64,000 bases of DNA from Sinomonas sp. ASV322 (GTDB lineage Bacteria; Actinomycetota; Actinomycetes; Actinomycetales; Micrococcaceae): the NCBI RefSeq assembly GCF_030908245.1, contig NZ_JAVFJJ010000002.1, forward strand, positions 310,001 through 374,000. The letters run 5' to 3'. Each line of letters starts with the position of its first letter. Within the stretch, counting starts at the first letter, position 1. The position numbers and the translations under genes are program-made. A model generated the notes under the pieces. It was not told the origin of the DNA. It was given only the letters and a program-made list of their open reading frames with translations, and did not search any database. Positions 15,124 through 24,991 of this stretch are shown here, piece by piece.

Positions 15124-16251
15124 ATGAGCGACGCAGCTGGTGCTCAACCCCCTGATGACGCGGCACGAAGCCGACTTCGGCGGCGCCTGATCGCCGCCGC
15201 GGCAGCGCTCATCCTGGCCGGGGGCGCGGTCTTCGCAACGTTCATCGTCACTTCACAGCGCTCTGCCCCGCCGACGGCGACACCCAGTTCCACGAGCCCG
15301 AGCCCGAGCCCGAGCCCAAGCCCGAGCGCGACACCGACGCCAACCCCGACGCCAACCCCCACGCCTCCACCGCCGCCACCGCCCCCATCTCTTCCGGACT
15401 TGCCTCACACGCCGATGAACATCTTGGTGCTCGGAAGCGATATCGCCGGAAGCGCGCGCGAGGCGACGGAACGCCAAGAGGCCACCGGCGAACACGAGCC
15501 CCAAGATGCAGACACGATCATGCTGATCCACATTCCGGCCGACCGGCACAAGGTCTTCGGGATTTCGATCATGCGCGACAACTGGGTGAACATCCCGGGC
15601 TATGGCGTCATGAAGATCAATGCGGGCCTTCAGCTGGCCGGGCCCAAGCTCGTTGTCGCCACCGTTGAATCCTTGCTGCACACCCACATCGACCATTACG
15701 TGATGACGGACTTCGGCGGCTTCAAGGCCTTCGTCGATGCCGTCGGCGGAATCGACGTCGACGTCCCAGTGCCCTTCACCTCAACCGTGCCCTACACGGC
15801 AACCTTCGAGACCCAGCACACCTTCACGAAGGGCGTGAACAGGTTGGACGGGGAAGCCGCCCTCCAATTCGTCCGCGAACGCCATGCCTTCCCTGACGGC
15901 GACTATCAACGAGTGCGCAACCAGCAGGCGTTCGTCCGCGCGATGATGGCCCTCATCCTCAGCTCGGGCAGGGCGCGCGATGCGGTCAATGCGATCGCCC
16001 TCATCGCCCTGGCCTCGCCCGTTCTCACGGTGGACTCCGGCTTCGACCCGACCGCGATGGCGGCCCTGGCGTACGCCCTGCGCGGGACCGATCCCGCCGC
16101 AGCGGTGTTCTTCACCCTGCCCACGGCCGGCACGGGCTTCTCCGCGGGCGGCCAGTCCATCGTGCTCCCCGACTACGGCGGAATCGAGGAGGTTGCCGCG
16201 GCCTTGGCGGCAGACGGACTGGACGACTACGCCGCGGCCCACGGCCTGTGA
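15124..16251 (+). CDS. LytR-CpsA-Psr (LCP) family cell-envelope ligase
   Basis: 375 residues: cytosolic basic start, one membrane helix (about residues 22-44), a Ser/Thr/Pro linker ([27 protein letters not shown]) and an extracytoplasmic LCP domain (NILVLGSDIAG, DADTIMLIHIPADRHKVFGISIMRDNWV, LDGEAALQFVRERHAF, DYQRVRNQQ) with the conserved Asp and Arg residues. This family transfers polyisoprenoid-linked glycopolymers to peptidoglycan. Target polymer unknown. Confidence 0.9.
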   Translation: MSDAAGAQPPDDAARSRLRRRLIAAAAALILAGGAVFATFIVTSQRSAPPTATPSSTSPSPSPSPSPSATPTPTPTPTPTPPPPPPPPSLPDLPHTPMNILVLGSDIAGSAREATERQEATGEHEPQDADTIMLIHIPADRHKVFGISIMRDNWVNIPGYGVMKINAGLQLAGPKLVVATVESLLHTHIDHYVMTDFGGFKAFVDAVGGIDVDVPVPFTSTVPYTATFETQHTFTKGVNRLDGEAALQFVRERHAFPDGDYQRVRNQQAFVRAMMALILSSGRARDAVNAIALIALASPVLTVDSGFDPTAMAALAYALRGTDPAAAVFFTLPTAGTGFSAGGQSIVLPDYGGIEEVAAALAADGLDDYAAAHGL

Positions 16252-17944: not shown

Positions 17945-19588
17945 CTAGAGCGCAGCGGACGCGATGGGCAGGCGCAGCGTGAAGACGCTCCCGACGCCGA
18001 GCTCGCTCGCGCATTCGAGCTCGCCCCCGTGCTGGACGGCGACCTCCTTTGCGAGCGCGAGTCCCAGCCCCGTCCCGGGTATGCCCGACCGGATCGCTGC
18101 CGTGCTGCGCTGGAACCGCGTGAAGACCCGCTGGACGTCTTCGGGTGCAATCCCCAGGCCCTGGTCCTCGACCGTGCACACGGCCCAGTCGCCGTCGCGC
18201 GACGCACGCAGCGCGACCTTCGTGCCGGATTCCGAGTACTTGAGCGCATTGGAGACGAGGTTGTCGAGCACTCGGACGAGCCCGGTGCGGTCGCCCATGA
18301 CGGGGAGTTCGATGTCCGCCGCGACGCTGACGGCAATACCCCTCCCTTCGGCGTCGGGCGCCGCGGAGGCGGCCGCATACGTGAGGAGCCGCGCGAGGTC
18401 GAGCCTTGTGCGCGGAACCTCCGCCGTCGTGCCCTCGACCGACGCGGCGAGGATGTCGTCGACCATCTTCCGGAGGTGGCGCGCGTTCCGGCTCATGACT
18501 TGAAGGTCGGAACGCGCCTCGGGGCTGAGGGACGGATCCTCTTGGAGGAGCTCGGCGTAGCCGAGGAGGCTCGTGAGCGGCGTCCGGAATTCGTGGGACA
18601 TGCTCGCGAGGAAGCTGTCCCTCGCCCGCACGGCCGCCACGACCTCGGTCACGTCCGACGACGCCAGCACGATCCCCGCGTGCGCGCCCGCGGGGTCGGA
18701 GAACTCGCGGGCCGAGATGGCGACCATGCGCGCGTCCGGTCCGTTCCCGAGCCGGAAGATCTCGTGGTCGAGGGTGGCCCCGGACCGGGCCCGCGCGAGG
18801 GGGCGCTCGTCCGCGGCCACGGGCTCGCCACCCTCGCGAAAGACGAGCAGATCACCTTCGAGGGCCGAGGCGCGGCCCTCGGGAAGCGCGACGAGGTAGA
18901 GCTGGCGCTGCTTCGCATTGAGGAAGATGTTCTCACCCTGGTCGTCGATCACGAGCACGCCGACGTCGACGGTCTCGAGCACCGTGTCGAGGAGCCGCTC
19001 GCGGGTCTCGCTCCGCGCGAGGAGCTCCTCGACGCGAGCCTGCTGCGCGACGCCACGCGATGTCATGGCGGCGATCACGACGGCGACCGTGATGAGCATG
19101 AGCGGAGCGACGATTTCCGCGATGAACGAGTGGGGAGCCGCCGACCCGACGATGAGGAGCGGCGTCCACACCATGACGACCGATGCCAACGCGCCGATCC
19201 CTACGACAAGCCGTGGGCGATACCCCGACCCGGAAAGCCACATGATGGGGAACACGGCGACGAGGGCGAGCCCCGAGAGGACCGGGGTCTCCGCCGCACG
19301 GACCAGCCCGACGGGAACGAAGTCGAGCAGGGGGATGGCAAGCGGTGCCCACGAGGGCAGGCGGCGCCACGGGATCACGGCGCAGGCAGCGAAGATGACG
19401 ACGGCGATGGCCTGGCCCGCTGCAAAGGCGCCCTCGGAGACGGGCCTGATGCCCGCGAGCGTCACGACCACGTAGATGAGCAAAAGGGTTATGTTGAGGG
19501 GGAGCTGGGCGAGGATCACCCGGCCCCGGGGGCCGAGTCCGTCGAATCGGCGCCGGCCCGCCAGCAGGACCTCCAGAAGCTTTTCCAC
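17945..19588 (-). CDS. Membrane sensor histidine kinase
   Basis: 547 residues, starting at GTG 19588 (GGAG 7 bases upstream). About six membrane helices (residues about 25-180), a PAS-like sensor (FLNAKQRQLY ... EFSDPAGAHAGIVLASSDVTEV), HisKA with SMSHEFRTPLTSLLGY, and HATPase_c with LDNLVSNALKYS, EDQGLGIAPEDV and GTGLGLALAKEVAVQHGG. Divergent from the response-regulator phosphatase gene across 88 bp, so it is its probable kinase. It ends 77 bp from the molybdopterin gene. Signal unknown. Confidence 0.92.
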   Translation of the reverse strand: MEKLLEVLLAGRRRFDGLGPRGRVILAQLPLNITLLLIYVVVTLAGIRPVSEGAFAAGQAIAVVIFAACAVIPWRRLPSWAPLAIPLLDFVPVGLVRAAETPVLSGLALVAVFPIMWLSGSGYRPRLVVGIGALASVVMVWTPLLIVGSAAPHSFIAEIVAPLMLITVAVVIAAMTSRGVAQQARVEELLARSETRERLLDTVLETVDVGVLVIDDQGENIFLNAKQRQLYLVALPEGRASALEGDLLVFREGGEPVAADERPLARARSGATLDHEIFRLGNGPDARMVAISAREFSDPAGAHAGIVLASSDVTEVVAAVRARDSFLASMSHEFRTPLTSLLGYAELLQEDPSLSPEARSDLQVMSRNARHLRKMVDDILAASVEGTTAEVPRTRLDLARLLTYAAASAAPDAEGRGIAVSVAADIELPVMGDRTGLVRVLDNLVSNALKYSESGTKVALRASRDGDWAVCTVEDQGLGIAPEDVQRVFTRFQRSTAAIRSGIPGTGLGLALAKEVAVQHGGELECASELGVGSVFTLRLPIASAAL

Positions 19589-19676
19589 GGCTCTCCAGTC
19601 ACATTCTTTGTATTCCCCAGACAAGTTTGTGACACAGACCTCGGAAATGCTGGAGCGGACATGTAAAAAGGAGAAC

Positions 19677-20771
19677 ATGACACGTCGCGCACTCGTCATC
19701 GAGGACAATCCGGACATCCGGCGCCTCCTCGAAGCGACGCTCAGCCGCCAGGGGTTCGACGCCACCAGCGCCGGCGCGGGCTACCCGGCCCTTGAGGCCG
19801 CGCGCCGCATCGAGCCGGACCTCATCACCCTCGATCTCGGGCTCCCCGATCTCGACGGCCTCGAGGTATGCCGGACGCTGCGCATGTTCAGCAACGCGTA
19901 CATCCTCGTGGTCACGGCGCGCGCCGCGGAGGCCGACCGCCTCGAGGCGCTCGACCGTGGTGCGGACGACGTGCTCCCCAAGCCGTTCAGCCCGCGCGAG
20001 CTCCAGGCGCGGGTCGAGGCGCTCTTCCGCCGCCCGCGCGCAGCCGCGGCACCAGAGACCGAGCTCCAGACGGCCGCACGCGTCCAGCGTGGCCTCCTCC
20101 CGGACCGCGCCCCGGATGTGCCCGGCTACGACATCGCGGGCGCGTGCCACCCGTCGCGGAGCGTCGGCGGCGACTTCTTCGACTGGGAGAGCGACGGCGC
20201 CTCGATCGCCTTCACGCTGGCGGACGCGATGGGCAAGGGCATGGGGGCCGCGCTCGTCGCGGCCACCGCCCGGGCTGTGCTGCGCCCGGGCCGCCTCGAT
20301 CACGGGCCCGGGGCCCTCGTGGGAACGGCGGCGAGGGCGCTCGAGCCCGACCTGCTCCGGCTCGGATCGTTCGTGACACTCCTCCACACACGCCTCGATG
20401 CCGCGACGGGCGATTTCACGTACGTCGACGCGGGGCACGGCCTCGGCGTCCTCATCCACCCGGACGGCATGTGGGAGCGGCTCGAGACGTCCGGGCCCCC
20501 GATCGGCCTGCTCCAGGGCGCCGAGTGGACGGCTCGCGACGGCCGGCTCGAGCCCGGTGGCACCCTCGTGGCCCTGAGCGACGGGCTGCTCGAAGGGTAC
20601 GCCCGAGTCGAGGAGGCGCTCGATGCCGCCACGGCGGCCATCGTCGGGGCGCCGGACGCCGCGGCGGCCGTTAGCTCGGTCATCAGCCTTGATTCGACGA
20701 ATCAGGATGACACGACCGTCATCGTCGTCCGTCGCGCGCCTGCGGGCGCCTCCCCGCAGGGGACGGGGTGA
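19677..20771 (+). CDS. Response regulator with PP2C-type (RsbU/SpoIIE) phosphatase output
   Basis: 364 residues from ATG 19677 (AAAAGGAG just upstream). N-terminal receiver (VIEDNPD acidic pair, LDLGLPDLDG phospho-acceptor near Asp 54, VVTARA, PKPFSP), then a SpoIIE-type metal phosphatase: SVGGDFFDW, DAMGKGMGAALV, VDAGHG, ALSDGLLEG, DDTTVIVV. Phosphorylation by the divergent kinase should switch on dephosphorylation of a STAS protein, and one is encoded two genes downstream. It overlaps the glycosyltransferase start by GTGA. Confidence 0.93.
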   Translation: MTRRALVIEDNPDIRRLLEATLSRQGFDATSAGAGYPALEAARRIEPDLITLDLGLPDLDGLEVCRTLRMFSNAYILVVTARAAEADRLEALDRGADDVLPKPFSPRELQARVEALFRRPRAAAAPETELQTAARVQRGLLPDRAPDVPGYDIAGACHPSRSVGGDFFDWESDGASIAFTLADAMGKGMGAALVAATARAVLRPGRLDHGPGALVGTAARALEPDLLRLGSFVTLLHTRLDAATGDFTYVDAGHGLGVLIHPDGMWERLETSGPPIGLLQGAEWTARDGRLEPGGTLVALSDGLLEGYARVEEALDAATAAIVGAPDAAAAVSSVISLDSTNQDDTTVIVVRRAPAGASPQGTG

Positions 20772-22771
20772 GGCACGTTATAGTCCGCGCCGTCGCGACC
20801 CTCACGGTCCTGACCGGCGCGAACTACATCCTGTGGCGGTGGGAGGCCTCGGTCAACTGGGACGTCTGGTGGATCGCCCTCCCGCTCGTCGTTGCGGAGA
20901 CGTACTCACTCATCGACGTCGCCCTCTTCGCGATCACGGTGTGGCGCGTCCCCGCGCATCGCGTCCCGCCCACACCGCCCGAGGGCCTGCGCGTCGACGT
21001 CTTCATCACGACCTACGACGAAGACCCGGAGCTCGTGCTCACGACGGTCAGCGCGGCCCAGGCGATCCGTTACCCCCACCGCACGTGGATCCTCGACGAC
21101 GGCGCCCGCACCGCGCTGAGCGCGGAGGCCGAGCGGATCGGCGTCGGCTACGTATCCCGCGGGGAAGAGTGGCACGGAAAGCCGCGCCACGCGAAGGCCG
21201 GAAACCTCAACAACGCGCTCGAGCAGACCCAGGGCGAGTTCATCCTCATCCTCGACGCGGACCAGGTGCCCACCCCCGAAATCCTCGACCGCACCCTCGG
21301 CTACTTCAACGACCGCCGCGTGGCCTTCGTCCAGACGCCCCAGTGGTTCGGCAACGTCCCCGAGTCAGATCCCCTCGGGAGCCAGGCCCCGCTCTTCTAC
21401 GGTCCCATCCAGCGGGGCAAGGACGGCTGGAACGCGGCCTTCTTCTGCGGTTCGAACGGCATCCTTCGCCGCGAGGCGCTCATGCAGCTCGGCCTCACGG
21501 GCTACGTGGGGGACATCGAGCGTCGCGTGCGCCGGGCGCTCGTCGCGGGGCGGCAGGCGGTCCACAGCGCACGACGGCGGCCCGGCGCCGAGGATCCCAA
21601 GGTCGCCGCGCTGCTCGCGAGCGTCGACGAGGCCCTCGCCGAGGGCTCGCGGCGGCTTGCGGCGGGTGCGTCGATCGGGGACGCGACCTTCGCCGTCCAG
21701 TCGACCGTCGACGCCGCAGTCCGCGCGCTCGTCGCGCAGGATCTCGAGCTCGTCACGGCGGACGCCGCGGCGCTCATCGCGGAATTCAGCGCAGGAATCG
21801 CCGCGGAATCCGGGGCCCGGCACCGGGCCGAGGCGCGGCCCGCGGACCTGGCCGCCGCCGTCGAACGCCTCGCGGCCCGCGACCTCTCCCCGCTCGGCGC
21901 CCTCGAATCCGTGCGGGACGTCCTCGACCAGGTCAGCGTCGAGCGGCTCCACGAGGCACAGCCGATCATGCCGCTCTCGACCATCTCCGTGACGGAGGAC
22001 ATGTCGACGTCGATGCGCCTCCACGCAGCGGGCTGGCGCAGCGTCTACCACGATGAGCTGCTCGCCGTCGGGCTTGCGCCCGAGGACCTCCCCTCGATGC
22101 TCTCGCAGCGCATGCGCTGGGCGCAGGGCACGGTGCAGGTCATGCTCCAGGAGAATCCGCTGACCATGCGAGGCCTCTCGTGGGGTCAGCGCCTCATGTA
22201 TTTCGGCACGATGTGGAGCTACCTCTCGGGCTTCGCTGCGGTCGTGTACTTCGCGGGGCCGCTCGTGTACCTGCTCGCAGGGGTCCTCCCGGTCCAGGCC
22301 CTCAACGTCGACTTCTTCTCGCATTTCGTCCCGTTCATGGTGCTGAATCAGGCGATGTTCCTCATCGTCGCCAACGGCGCGCGCACGTGGCGAGGCCAGC
22401 AGTACAACCTCGCGCTGTTCCCGACGTGGATCCGAGCCTGCACGTCCGCGGCCGCGAACGTCTGGTTCGGGCGCCCGCTCGATTTCGTCGTGACGCCAAA
22501 ACCCCGGGAGGAAAGTCAGCGGGAAAACCAGCGCCAGCGCTCGGGCCGGCACGCCCTCCGGCTCGTGTGGCCCCAGGGGGTGTTCGCGGCCGGCCTCGCC
22601 ATCGCGTGCATCGTGGGCGCGGCGCGGTGGATTCTTGGGTTGGCCACGGATGTCGGTACCGTTGTCAACGTCGGCTGGGCGGTGTTCGATCTCACACTTT
22701 TGAGCGTGCTCGTCGGGGCGGCACGCTACCAGGGGTTCCACACGCAGACCGGGGGCGAGGAGGAAAGATGA
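20768..22771 (+). CDS. BcsA-like processive family 2 glycosyltransferase
   Basis: 667 residues. Membrane helices at both ends surround a GT-A domain with LDDGA (about 110), DADQ (about 163), FVQTPQWF, STISVTEDMSTSMRLH (TED about 409-411) and QRMRWAQGT (about 446), the full signature of cellulose/hyaluronan-type synthases. No PilZ domain follows, so no c-di-GMP control. About 150 residues (250-400) of predicted helical, Ala/Arg-rich sequence are inserted between the acceptor loop and TED. Flanked on both sides by partner-switch genes. Product probably a beta-linked exopolysaccharide; not determinable here. Confidence 0.88.
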   Translation: MRHVIVRAVATLTVLTGANYILWRWEASVNWDVWWIALPLVVAETYSLIDVALFAITVWRVPAHRVPPTPPEGLRVDVFITTYDEDPELVLTTVSAAQAIRYPHRTWILDDGARTALSAEAERIGVGYVSRGEEWHGKPRHAKAGNLNNALEQTQGEFILILDADQVPTPEILDRTLGYFNDRRVAFVQTPQWFGNVPESDPLGSQAPLFYGPIQRGKDGWNAAFFCGSNGILRREALMQLGLTGYVGDIERRVRRALVAGRQAVHSARRRPGAEDPKVAALLASVDEALAEGSRRLAAGASIGDATFAVQSTVDAAVRALVAQDLELVTADAAALIAEFSAGIAAESGARHRAEARPADLAAAVERLAARDLSPLGALESVRDVLDQVSVERLHEAQPIMPLSTISVTEDMSTSMRLHAAGWRSVYHDELLAVGLAPEDLPSMLSQRMRWAQGTVQVMLQENPLTMRGLSWGQRLMYFGTMWSYLSGFAAVVYFAGPLVYLLAGVLPVQALNVDFFSHFVPFMVLNQAMFLIVANGARTWRGQQYNLALFPTWIRACTSAAANVWFGRPLDFVVTPKPREESQRENQRQRSGRHALRLVWPQGVFAAGLAIACIVGAARWILGLATDVGTVVNVGWAVFDLTLLSVLVGAARYQGFHTQTGGEEER

Positions 22772-23100
22772 AGTTCGCCGTCGAGGAACGGGCAGGCTAC
22801 ACCGAGGTCACGGCGCAGGGGAGGCTCAACATGGTGGGCGCTCCCCTGCTCAAGGCCGCCGTCTCGGATGCCCTCGAGTCGGGGCACAAGCTGCTCGTCC
22901 TCAATCTCGGGGAGACCGAATTCATGGACTCCTCGGGGCTCGGGGCGCTCGTCGGCTGCCTCAAGGCGGCCCGCCAAGCCGGGGGCGACCTCCGGATCGC
23001 CAATGTCGGAGAGCAGGTGCAGATGGTCCTCAAACTCACGAGCATCGACCGGATCCTCACCCCGTACCCCGCCGTCGAGGATGCATACCGGAATGCGTGA
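22768..23100 (+). CDS. STAS-domain anti-sigma-factor-antagonist-type protein
   Basis: 110 residues, RsbV/SpoIIAA family. ATG 22768 overlaps the glycosyltransferase stop; AGGAGGAAAG precedes it. Phospho-site serines in TEFMDSSGLGALVGCLKAAR. Expected cycle: phosphorylated by the RsbW-like kinase encoded next, dephosphorylated by the RR-PP2C protein. Since no sigma factor lies in the operon, the output may be the glycosyltransferase itself. Confidence 0.92.
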   Translation: MKFAVEERAGYTEVTAQGRLNMVGAPLLKAAVSDALESGHKLLVLNLGETEFMDSSGLGALVGCLKAARQAGGDLRIANVGEQVQMVLKLTSIDRILTPYPAVEDAYRNA

Positions 23101-23524
23101 CCTGCTCGCCGAAGGGCATGTGCGCGGTTCGGCCACGCCGCAGATCGTCGACGCGGTGCAGGACGAGCTGGCCCGCATGTGGATCGACGCGATGGTGATC
23201 GGTCCCGGGGACCGGCTCCCGTTCGAGCTCGCAGTCATCGAGGTCGTCACGAACACGGTCAAGCACGCGCGCCCGCCGGGCGGCGAGGTCCAGCTGGATC
23301 TCGAGGTCGAGGTGCGGGCCGACCTCCTGCTCGCGCGCCTCTTCGAGCTCGGGGCCTGGCCGGCCATCATCCCCGAGGGCTCGGGCGAGATGCCCGGCCC
23401 CGAGGCCGAAGCGGGGCGCGGCCTCGCGCTCGCACGACAGCTCCTCACGACGATCACGTGCGAGCGGCACGACGGGGCCAACGTCTGGACCCTCACGCTG
23501 CGCCCCGAGCACGAGGCGGGATAG
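23093..23524 (+). CDS. RsbW-like serine kinase / anti-sigma-type ATPase
   Basis: 143 residues with GHKL ATPase N-box (FELAVIEVVTNTVKHARP) and G2-like motif (AGRGLALARQLL). ATG 23093 overlaps the STAS gene by 8 bases. It would bind and phosphorylate the STAS protein and sequester a target when free. Confidence 0.88.
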   Translation: MRDLLAEGHVRGSATPQIVDAVQDELARMWIDAMVIGPGDRLPFELAVIEVVTNTVKHARPPGGEVQLDLEVEVRADLLLARLFELGAWPAIIPEGSGEMPGPEAEAGRGLALARQLLTTITCERHDGANVWTLTLRPEHEAG

Positions 23525-23551
23525 CACCCCGGTCTCGGAGAGGACGGGACC

Positions 23552-24991
23552 ATGACGAGAACACGGCCACGCCGGGCGGGGCGCCCGGTTCGGCTGGCCG
23601 CCGCCGTCGCCTGTTTCGTCGCCGCCTGCGCCGGACTCGCCGCGTGCACCGGGCCGACGACGGCGGGGCCCACCCCGGCTTTCCCGCCCACCCCACCCGC
23701 GCCCCTCACCGCGGCCCCCGGCTCCCGCACCCCGGGGCCTCTCGAGCCGGACGACTGGCCCACCTACCACCGCGACCCGGCCCGCACGGGCGCGGGGCCG
23801 GCGTCGCCCGCCCTCGACACGCTCGGCCAGCTCCGCAGCGCCTGGCACGCGCGGCTCGACGGCGCGGTCTATGCCGAGCCGCTCGTCGTCCGCGGCCGGG
23901 TGATCGCGGCGACTGAAGCGAACACCGTGTATGCCCTCGATGCGACAAACGGTCAGGTCGTGTGGCAGCGCAACCTCGGAGCTCCGATGCGTGCCTCGGC
24001 GCTGCCGTGCGGGAACATCGACCCCTTGGGCATCACGGGAACGCCCGTGTACGACGCCGCCACAGACCTCGTGTTCGCGGTCGGGGAACTCTCCGACGGC
24101 CGCCACGAACTCGTGGGTGTCGACGCGGGCGACGGTTCGCTCGTTGTGCGGCGCGAGGTCGAGCCGCCCCACGGTGACCGGATCGCGTACCAGCAGCGCG
24201 CCGCCCTCGCCCTCCTGAACGATCGCATCTACATCGCCTATGGCGGGCTCTACGGCGATTGCGCCGACTACACCGGCACGGTGCTGTCGGTGCCCACCAC
24301 GGGCGGCGGGCCCATCGAGGCCTACGTCGTGCCGACCCGCCGTCAAGGCGGCATCTGGGCGCCCGGCGGGCCCACGGTGGACGGTTCGCGCCTGCTTGTG
24401 GGAGTGGGCAACGGGTCCTCGACCACCGATTACGACGGCTCCGATTCCCTCCTCGCGCTCAGCGCCTCGCTCGAGCGCATCGACTTCTTCGCCCCGTCCA
24501 CCTGGAGGCAAGACAATGCGGGCGACGCCGACCTCGGCTCGCTCACTCCCGTCCGGGTGGGGCCCTACGTGTTCGCGGACGGCAAGAGCGGGACCGCCTA
24601 CCTGCTCGATGCGGGACACTTCGGAGGGATCGGCGGCGCCCTCGCGCAGGCCTCGGTCTGCCGGGCGTTCGGCGCCCCGGCAGTCACGGACATGACCCTC
24701 TATGTCCCGTGCCGCGGCGGGCTGCAGCAGGTGACCGCGGTGTCACCGGCCGGAATCCACCTCGGCTGGCGGCTTCCCGTGCGCGCGGCCGGCTCGCCGG
24801 TGACGGGCTACGGGGCGGTGTGGGTCGTCGACTACGAGACCGGGGACCTCTACGCCCTCGACCCCGCGAGCGGGAGCGTCCGGCAGCACGCGCAGCTCGG
24901 CCCCGTGCCGCATTTCGCGACCCCGACGCTCTCGGGCGGGAGGGTGTTCGTGGGAACGCTCGACGGCGTCGTAGCCCTCGCCGCCGGGTAG
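23552..24991 (+). CDS. PQQ-like beta-propeller lipoprotein
   Basis: 479 residues with signal peptide and lipobox (LAACTG), a Pro/Thr-rich spacer, then repeated propeller blades (VYALDATNGQVVW, LYALDPASGSVRQ, VFVGTLDGVVALAAG). Resembles the BamB/quinoprotein fold; no catalytic evidence is seen. Last gene of the partner-switch/glycosyltransferase operon, 27 bp after the kinase gene, so it may help handle or anchor the exported polymer. Cysteine pairs may form disulfides. Confidence 0.85.
   Translation: MTRTRPRRAGRPVRLAAAVACFVAACAGLAACTGPTTAGPTPAFPPTPPAPLTAAPGSRTPGPLEPDDWPTYHRDPARTGAGPASPALDTLGQLRSAWHARLDGAVYAEPLVVRGRVIAATEANTVYALDATNGQVVWQRNLGAPMRASALPCGNIDPLGITGTPVYDAATDLVFAVGELSDGRHELVGVDAGDGSLVVRREVEPPHGDRIAYQQRAALALLNDRIYIAYGGLYGDCADYTGTVLSVPTTGGGPIEAYVVPTRRQGGIWAPGGPTVDGSRLLVGVGNGSSTTDYDGSDSLLALSASLERIDFFAPSTWRQDNAGDADLGSLTPVRVGPYVFADGKSGTAYLLDAGHFGGIGGALAQASVCRAFGAPAVTDMTLYVPCRGGLQQVTAVSPAGIHLGWRLPVRAAGSPVTGYGAVWVVDYETGDLYALDPASGSVRQHAQLGPVPHFATPTLSGGRVFVGTLDGVVALAAG

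Follow-up and report, generated by a model that had tools for sequence, protein, structure and literature searches.

The window analysed here is a 64,000-nucleotide stretch from Sinomonas sp. ASV322 (contig NZ_JAVFJJ010000002.1, positions 310,001 to 374,000 of the forward strand), in which the locus at 17945-24991 carries consecutive genes for a receiver-PP2C phosphatase, a BcsA-like family 2 glycosyltransferase (GT2), a STAS protein and an RsbW-like kinase. We hold it to be reasonably probable that the locus is a partner-switching module with a polysaccharide synthase as its output instead of a sigma factor, the unphosphorylated STAS protein switching the synthase on directly. The core order phosphatase-synthase-STAS-kinase is conserved: STAS and kinase genes lie directly downstream of the synthase gene in 160 of 179 distinct actinobacterial loci, and because it recurs to this extent the order is not due to chance. 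Besides gene order and co-occurrence, the reading draws on the motifs of the encoded proteins, the tree grouping of the synthases, the loss of the phosphorylatable serine in a kinase-less clade and the lack of a PilZ domain in the synthase.

Make-up and conservation of the cassette

Judged from their sequences, the locus genes supply all parts of a partner switch, i.e. a SpoIIE-type PP2C phosphatase, a single-domain STAS protein with a phosphorylatable Ser and a HATPase_c_2 kinase. The PP2C domain scored 101.9 bits against PF07228 (cut-off 25), and the D/D/T/K residues of the receiver as well as the Asp motifs of the phosphatase were read by eye from the translation. This protein is presumed to be the phosphatase of the phosphorylated STAS protein (STAS-P), and the divergent membrane histidine kinase is presumed to be the partner of its receiver domain. 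The STAS protein was above cut-off with both PF01740 and TIGR00377 and displays the motif DSSGLG; the first Ser of D-S-S-G presumably aligns with Ser56 of SypA. The latter, a protein of the same STAS family, is phosphorylated at that residue (PMC8256260). The kinase-like protein scored 36.1 bits against PF13581 (cut-off 27.4), with an N-box E-x3-N and a GRGL motif. In the synthase, the motifs DDG, DAD, TED, QRMRW and FVVTPK were read by eye, and alignments confirmed the presence of the catalytic GT2 and gating motifs of BcsA. The motifs of all these proteins (receiver, PP2C, synthase, STAS and kinase) are given the meanings that we take to be the usual ones, and the assignment of FVVTPK-type motifs to a gating loop follows PMC5567048 and PMC10237404. 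Against the NCBI cellulose synthase model TIGR03030 the synthase reached 329.3 bits, below the cut-off of 699.1, and the match fell in two stretches. No PilZ match was found in the protein with Pfam, and it ends approximately 14 residues beyond the last predicted helix.

The genes are tightly packed. The best start of the receiver-PP2C gene is the ATG at 19677, although a longer frame is possible. The synthase (GTG at 20768), STAS (ATG at 22768) and kinase (ATG at 23093) genes then overlap the preceding genes, with stops at 20771, 22771 and 23100, by 4, 4 and 8 bases, respectively, and the kinase gene stops at 23524. These overlaps had been read in the first-pass annotation and were confirmed, as were its gene identities, divergent histidine kinase and catalytic motifs by Pfam and renewed reading, with the one caveat of a Glu in the G1 box of the kinase.

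Features of the locus (window coordinates)
Feature	Position	Strand	Basis
Membrane histidine kinase, divergent	17945..19675	-	Pfam HisKA and HATPase_c; PAS_4 just below cut-off; start codon uncertain
Receiver and SpoIIE-type PP2C phosphatase	19677..20771	+	Pfam Response_reg and SpoIIE
BcsA-like GT2 polysaccharide synthase without PilZ or C-terminal tail domain	20768..22771	+	Pfam Cellulose_synt, Glycos_transf_2
Synthase insert, ~150 residues (~245-398), between DxD and TED	21500..21961	+	Alignment, predicted structure
Gating-loop motif FVVTPK	22484..22501	+	Motif read in translation
Single-domain STAS protein, anti-anti-sigma type	22768..23100	+	Pfam STAS; TIGR00377 above cut-off
Predicted phospho-acceptor Ser55 of STAS protein	22930..22932	+	First Ser of DSSGLG, by homology
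RsbW-like HATPase_c_2 protein, predicted STAS kinase	23093..23524	+	Pfam HATPase_c_2
PQQ/BamB-like propeller lipoprotein	23552..24991	+	Pfam PQQ_2; 27 bases beyond kinase gene

Conservation was assessed in several samples, which overlap taxonomically and were not drawn independently. In the order sample of 297 genomes (best four candidates per genome scored), a synthase match at E<=1e-40 was obtained in 16. Thirteen of these were of the full-length close type, two genomes (G231 and G273) had only a kinase-less type, and the last (G056) had a relative lacking the insert, on a 7-kb contig that carries no trio gene. STAS and then kinase genes followed directly in 13/13 close-type loci, with the PP2C gene directly upstream in 12; the exception, L031, has it downstream in opposite orientation. 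Likewise, in an evenly drawn class sample the synthase was found in 23 of 393 genomes (E<=1e-120; four of these genomes belong to the order sample as well), with STAS and kinase adjacent in every case. Two family-level samples, with 66/293 and 36/301 synthase-positive genomes, and the best 80 of 568 named loci from a collection scan brought the number of records compared to 209, of which 183 are distinct and, after setting aside four with less than 1 kb downstream, 179 could be assessed. The 160 cassettes comprise 159 (among them five with a DSSAL-motif STAS protein read by eye as keeping the Ser) and L228, which was no longer counted as an exception since STAS and kinase genes follow its synthase, itself split over two frames. 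A PP2C gene was within reach in 152 of the 159. The remaining 19 loci consist of seven with a STAS protein but neither kinase nor phosphorylatable Ser, and twelve other exceptions. Hence the expected co-occurrence of the synthase with STAS and kinase holds, and the synthase alone is the exception. Of the five-gene order originally proposed, the four-gene core stands and the lipoprotein does not: its gene was found in none of the other 12 cassette regions of the order sample, so that it was rejected as a module member and adjoins the conserved module without being part of it.

The surroundings of the core are more variable. In 9 of 98 other regions compared there is a histidine kinase from the similarity cluster of the present one, and in the three PP2C proteins from other cassettes that were scanned with Pfam a GAF domain replaces the receiver. 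In L026 (10973-13131, G251), two tandem receiver-PP2C genes lie upstream of the synthase. No natural fusion of the glycosyltransferase with STAS was seen in 99 regions scanned. A GH26-type gene occurs in 31 of 99 regions compared, some of them duplicates (five representatives were confirmed by Pfam), and a search of the source genome found no GH26. The product of the synthase is likely an exopolysaccharide, perhaps a beta-glucan or mannan; the GH26 or GH16 neighbours of some loci hint at mannan or mixed-linkage glucan. Upstream of the histidine kinase, another protein-coding gene at 15124-16251 encodes a protein that seems to resemble the LytR-CpsA-Psr cell-wall attachment enzymes.

Sigma factors, cyclic di-GMP and relatives in other phyla

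Sigma factor release is the best-known output of PP2C-STAS-RsbW trios, and under a conventional explanation the trio would control a sigma or transcription factor encoded elsewhere, the synthase being merely a co-transcribed target gene. SigB/F-like genes do occur in some cassette genomes, including the source (210 bits, below the 234-bit cut-off). However, the lack of a sigma factor gene remarked on in the first reading of the locus was borne out in all 13 cassette genomes examined, in none of which is such a gene linked to the cassette; the SigB/F/G-type matches are separated from it by 75 kb or more, or lie on different contigs. Seven of the 13 contain no sigma match better than one of approximately 130 bits common to all, which is taken to be the principal sigma factor. 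Furthermore, a model built from the 13 cassette kinases (E<=1e-12, best 13 candidates per genome scored) matched 13 of the 297 order genomes, once each and always as the cassette copy beside a full-length synthase, i.e. no copy of this kinase type was seen apart from the synthase. If the synthase were only a target, neither its position inside or beside the regulator genes in several phyla nor its retention of a STAS protein devoid of the phosphorylatable Ser would be expected. On these grounds we regard conventional regulation as unlikely.

The classic example of direct control by cyclic di-GMP (c-di-GMP) is provided by bacterial cellulose synthases. PilZ is absent (E<=0.001) from 10 of the 13 cassette genomes, the source genome included, and GGDEF from four; the source genome has two GGDEF matches. 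The suggestion in the first-pass annotation that the STAS/kinase pair may gate the synthase post-translationally, in place of PilZ/c-di-GMP control, is partly supported. The replacement of PilZ/c-di-GMP control gains support from this scarcity and from the absence of the trio at nine control synthases (0/9, see below); as to the gating, the contact tests described in the next section gave no STAS-specific signal. Alternatively, the trio could act on the polymer indirectly via another enzyme, be it a diguanylate cyclase or export or hydrolase machinery. SiaABC indeed acts on the cyclase SiaD (PMC7647112), and GGDEF proteins are encoded in nine of the 13 genomes. Still, the four genomes with no GGDEF and the ten with no PilZ speak against such a route, and the synthase and trio were the only genes noticed to be common to actinobacterial and proteobacterial loci in a comparison made by eye and not systematically; indirect action thus appears very improbable.

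Beyond Actinomycetota, plasmid records yielded synthase relatives with approximately 32-45% identity among the best 20, and a tighter family around a Pseudooceanicola protein comprised 18 plasmid records. Twelve proteobacterial loci and one from Nostoc were examined, the five records left out being further strains of the same genera. In all 12 proteobacterial loci (Pseudooceanicola, Rhodobacteraceae SC52, Paracoccus seriniphilus, P. liaowanqingii, Sphingobium, Vibrio THAF190c, Chimaeribacter, Pantoea piersonii, P. agglomerans, P. stewartii, Pantoea JZ29 and a Salmonella plasmid), SpoIIE/PP2C, STAS and ATP-binding genes are found within approximately 9 kb of a PilZ-less synthase. In Pseudooceanicola, SC52 and P. 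seriniphilus all three genes share one strand and lead up to the synthase gene, and D-S-[ST] is kept in 10/10 proteobacterial STAS proteins aligned. DUF3131, OpgC or other acyltransferases are neighbours in these loci, as is GH16 in two of them. On the Chimaeribacter, Salmonella and Pantoea plasmids (L243, L245 and L247) a globin gene lies downstream of the switch-linked synthase, in L243 and L245 together with a large response-regulator gene, which hints at oxygen or NO (nitric oxide) as input. The Nostoc UHCC 0926 plasmid has STAS and PP2C genes near the synthase and no kinase within 5 kb. Its synthase (L234, 4206-6191) has a large helical-looking insert elsewhere, flanked by the DDG and HAKAGN motifs, and upstream of the synthase another gene gave a GH26 match just below cut-off.

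The nine control loci consisted of four annotated bcsA genes and five rhizobial/Agrobacterium synthases, four of the latter beside an HlyD/RND-type adaptor gene. Neither STAS nor a PP2C catalytic domain was found within 9 kb of any of them by annotation and profile search; the profiles matched only receiver domains and, weakly, histidine-kinase-type ATPase domains. In a tenth control, Caballeronia, neither was found within 5 kb. In the S. meliloti pSymB control (L257, 6857-7202), an opposite-strand receiver domain matches the cassette PP2C receiver (4e-22) and lacks a phosphatase domain. In a 40-row tree, the switch-linked synthases and L040 split from BcsA and BgsA-like proteins with support of 100/97; the tree is unrooted, and it does not resolve the order of the actinobacterial, proteobacterial and Nostoc branches.

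The kinase-less clade, exceptional loci and contact tests

In the seven kinase-less loci (L038, L039, L042, L043 and L229-L231), the synthase is followed by the STAS gene, and no kinase or PP2C gene was found within the stretch available around each. A GH26-type gene comes next in the four looked at (L038, L039, L042 and L043); Pfam confirmed STAS in two scanned loci and GH26 in two scanned loci. The first Ser of D-S-S-G is replaced by Pro or Ala in all seven STAS proteins, and is Ser (D-S-[ST]) in 160/160 kinase-linked loci. A cassette-type kinase (E<=1e-6) is absent from two of the three genomes searched (G231 and G1096); in the third (G207) it is present, in a separate full cassette. The six of these synthases included in the tree form one group (100/100), and consequently the loss of kinase and phosphorylatable Ser was probably one event rather than seven. 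Loss of this Ser beside a retained STAS gene fits an unphosphorylated STAS protein that acts on the synthase itself. It would thus have stayed with the synthase with no such kinase to bind and without being phosphorylatable at that site. Were the unphosphorylated STAS protein an inhibitor, the kinase-less synthases would be permanently off, and it is therefore more likely the activating form.

The same clade bears on a different assignment of roles, in which the synthase takes the sigma factor's place, so that the RsbW-like kinase binds and inhibits it and unphosphorylated STAS only removes the kinase. RsbW and SpoIIAB bind and inhibit their sigma factors in this way, and six Curtobacterium loci keep synthase and kinase without an adjacent STAS gene. 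Nevertheless, the kinase-less clade retains its STAS protein even where, as in two of the three genomes searched, there is no cassette-type kinase to titrate, and in Curtobacterium a STAS orthologue is encoded elsewhere, beside another kinase gene, in 4/4 genomes searched. We consider kinase-mediated inhibition quite unlikely. That Curtobacterium represents control by the kinase alone was rejected in view of this STAS gene encoded elsewhere. Four stretches of this genus (L274-L277) display the STAS-kinase pair with no synthase within 15 kb, the synthase being elsewhere with a second, diverged kinase gene.

The twelve exceptions are these six Curtobacterium loci, five with neither gene adjacent (L041, L104, L115, L117 and L192) and L123 with STAS only. 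Among loci without an adjacent STAS gene, six genomes were searchable (four Curtobacterium, L104 and L115; those of L105, L114, L117 and L192 were left out), and all six encode a STAS orthologue elsewhere (E<=3e-40). The L104 genome has a complete cassette elsewhere, and that of L115 a PP2C-STAS-kinase trio. The former, Arthrobacter sp. ISL-30, has two switch cassettes a short distance apart (L280, 12073-13730), one with only a C-terminal synthase remnant between PP2C and STAS. The L123 genome has only a weaker kinase match (1e-13), within an unrelated-looking cluster. L041 (7418-9370) is a second synthase copy in G251, which also carries a full cassette (L026). It has no STAS gene nearby; a 24-residue deletion takes out its QxxRW motif and a GH26 gene adjoins, and it is probably decaying or an assembly fault.

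The insert of the synthase, which the first-pass annotation had missed, was considered as a possible site of contact with the STAS protein. It falls between the two stretches that match TIGR03030, is present in all 62 aligned sequences (approximately 150 residues, or approximately 110 in the kinase-less clade), and is absent from the solved E. coli BcsA with which they were aligned. An AlphaFold2 model of the synthase (mean pLDDT 85.6, pTM 0.83) predicts mostly long helices in this region (235-269, 277-298 and 303-347), with residues 341-400 poorly predicted. The nearest solved chains are BcsA, followed by plant cellulose synthases; in the latter, the class-specific region presumably sits in the same DxD-TED interval. 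Distance matrices indicate that insert and STAS protein evolve together beyond the synthase core, and that the co-evolution of insert and PP2C is no weaker.

Several observations weigh against direct control of the synthase by the STAS protein. The proteobacterial relatives lack the insert of approximately 150 residues and have approximately 45 at that place, so that it cannot be, and was rejected as, a universal STAS docking site; the helical insert is at most a candidate contact surface, in Actinomycetota only. Insert distances corrected for the synthase core correlated with PP2C (0.56), STAS (0.51) and kinase (0.47), and since the correlation with PP2C is as strong as that with STAS, the signal is not STAS-specific and provides no evidence of contact. 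Covariation pairs were spread across the synthase and not concentrated in the insert, in a mean-field analysis that had no power (156 sequences, effective 84), and the synthase-kinase pairs were as strong as the synthase-STAS pairs. In Curtobacterium a kinase gene follows the synthase with no STAS gene, and the STAS-kinase pair is found elsewhere. L117 and L192 have no STAS gene nearby, and L192 only a weak ATPase match on the other strand. Finally, the G1-box Asp of the kinase is Glu in the source locus and missing in some relatives. Direct contact of STAS protein and synthase is an inference.

Proposed control of the synthase and known systems

In the favoured partner-switch reading, the RsbW-like kinase would phosphorylate the STAS protein on the first Ser of DSSG and thereby hold it off the synthase. 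The receiver-PP2C protein, presumably driven here by the divergent histidine kinase and fitted with GAF domains elsewhere, would dephosphorylate it. The unphosphorylated STAS protein could then bind the PilZ-less GT2 synthase on its cytosolic face and turn chain synthesis on, until the kinase resets the switch by rephosphorylation. The STAS switch would thus do the job that PilZ and c-di-GMP do in BcsA. We would give an even chance to the wider proposal that PilZ-less GT2 exopolysaccharide synthases form a family spanning several phyla, with STAS as an allosteric activating subunit, phospho-switched in most members by a PP2C and an RsbW-like kinase of their own and constitutive in the kinase-less clade, as a c-di-GMP-independent counterpart of PilZ control.

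The module resembles RsbU-RsbV-RsbW and SpoIIE-SpoIIAA-SpoIIAB in its PP2C phosphatase, single-domain STAS protein with D-S-S/T-G and HATPase_c_2 kinase, but there is no linked sigma factor and most actinobacterial cassettes have the GT2 gene between phosphatase and STAS. Precedents exist for outputs other than sigma factors and for a link to polysaccharide. In SiaABCD of Pseudomonas aeruginosa, SiaC acts on an enzyme and not a sigma factor, although its target is the diguanylate cyclase SiaD and phosphorylation occurs at Thr68 (PMC7647112). In the SypE-SypA system of Vibrio fischeri, the STAS protein controls polysaccharide-dependent biofilm and is active when unphosphorylated, its mechanism or target being described as unknown (PMC4517449, PMC8256260). 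SypE is a single response-regulator protein with serine-kinase and phosphatase outputs, whereas these functions are on separate genes here, and the available descriptions of the 18-gene syp locus contain no synthase-STAS pairing. HmpU-HmpV-HmpW of Nostoc punctiforme is likewise a partner switch linked to polysaccharide; it operates in a cyanobacterial motility context, the available account describes no GT2 synthase pairing, and the direct target of unphosphorylated HmpV is given as unknown (PMC8256260). Anabaena all4160, compared by description only, is a glycosyltransferase with an N-terminal STAS domain in one protein (PMC8256260).

As regards the synthase, the likeness to BcsA lies in the GT2 fold, the DDG/DxD/TED/QxxRW and FxVTxK motifs and the nearest solved structures; the differences are the missing PilZ domain, the extra insert, the TIGR03030 score below cut-off and the nearby switch genes. 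The mixed-linkage beta-glucan synthase BgsA is likewise PilZ-less and BcsA-like. It has a 139-residue c-di-GMP-binding tail (PMC5567048), for which the short C-terminus of the source synthase leaves no counterpart, and the S. meliloti pSymB synthase locus, presumed to encode BgsA, has no trio within 9 kb.

Searches of open-access papers in PubMed Central turned up no account, in the texts seen, of a partner switch that adjoins a GT2 synthase or acts upon it. In combination, the loci tie PilZ-less BcsA relatives genetically to a phospho-switch in Actinomycetota, Alpha- and Gammaproteobacteria and one cyanobacterium, including four genomes that gave no GGDEF match. The kinase-less clade, with STAS proteins devoid of the phosphorylatable Ser, represents a natural two-component version of the synthase-STAS pair. 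According to a 2021 review (PMC8256260), it was not known what SypA and HmpV target; if the proposed control is true, it suggests that these and similar STAS proteins governing polysaccharide act directly on a biosynthetic enzyme. Best known for its control of gene expression, the partner switch here probably starts and stops polymer production directly.

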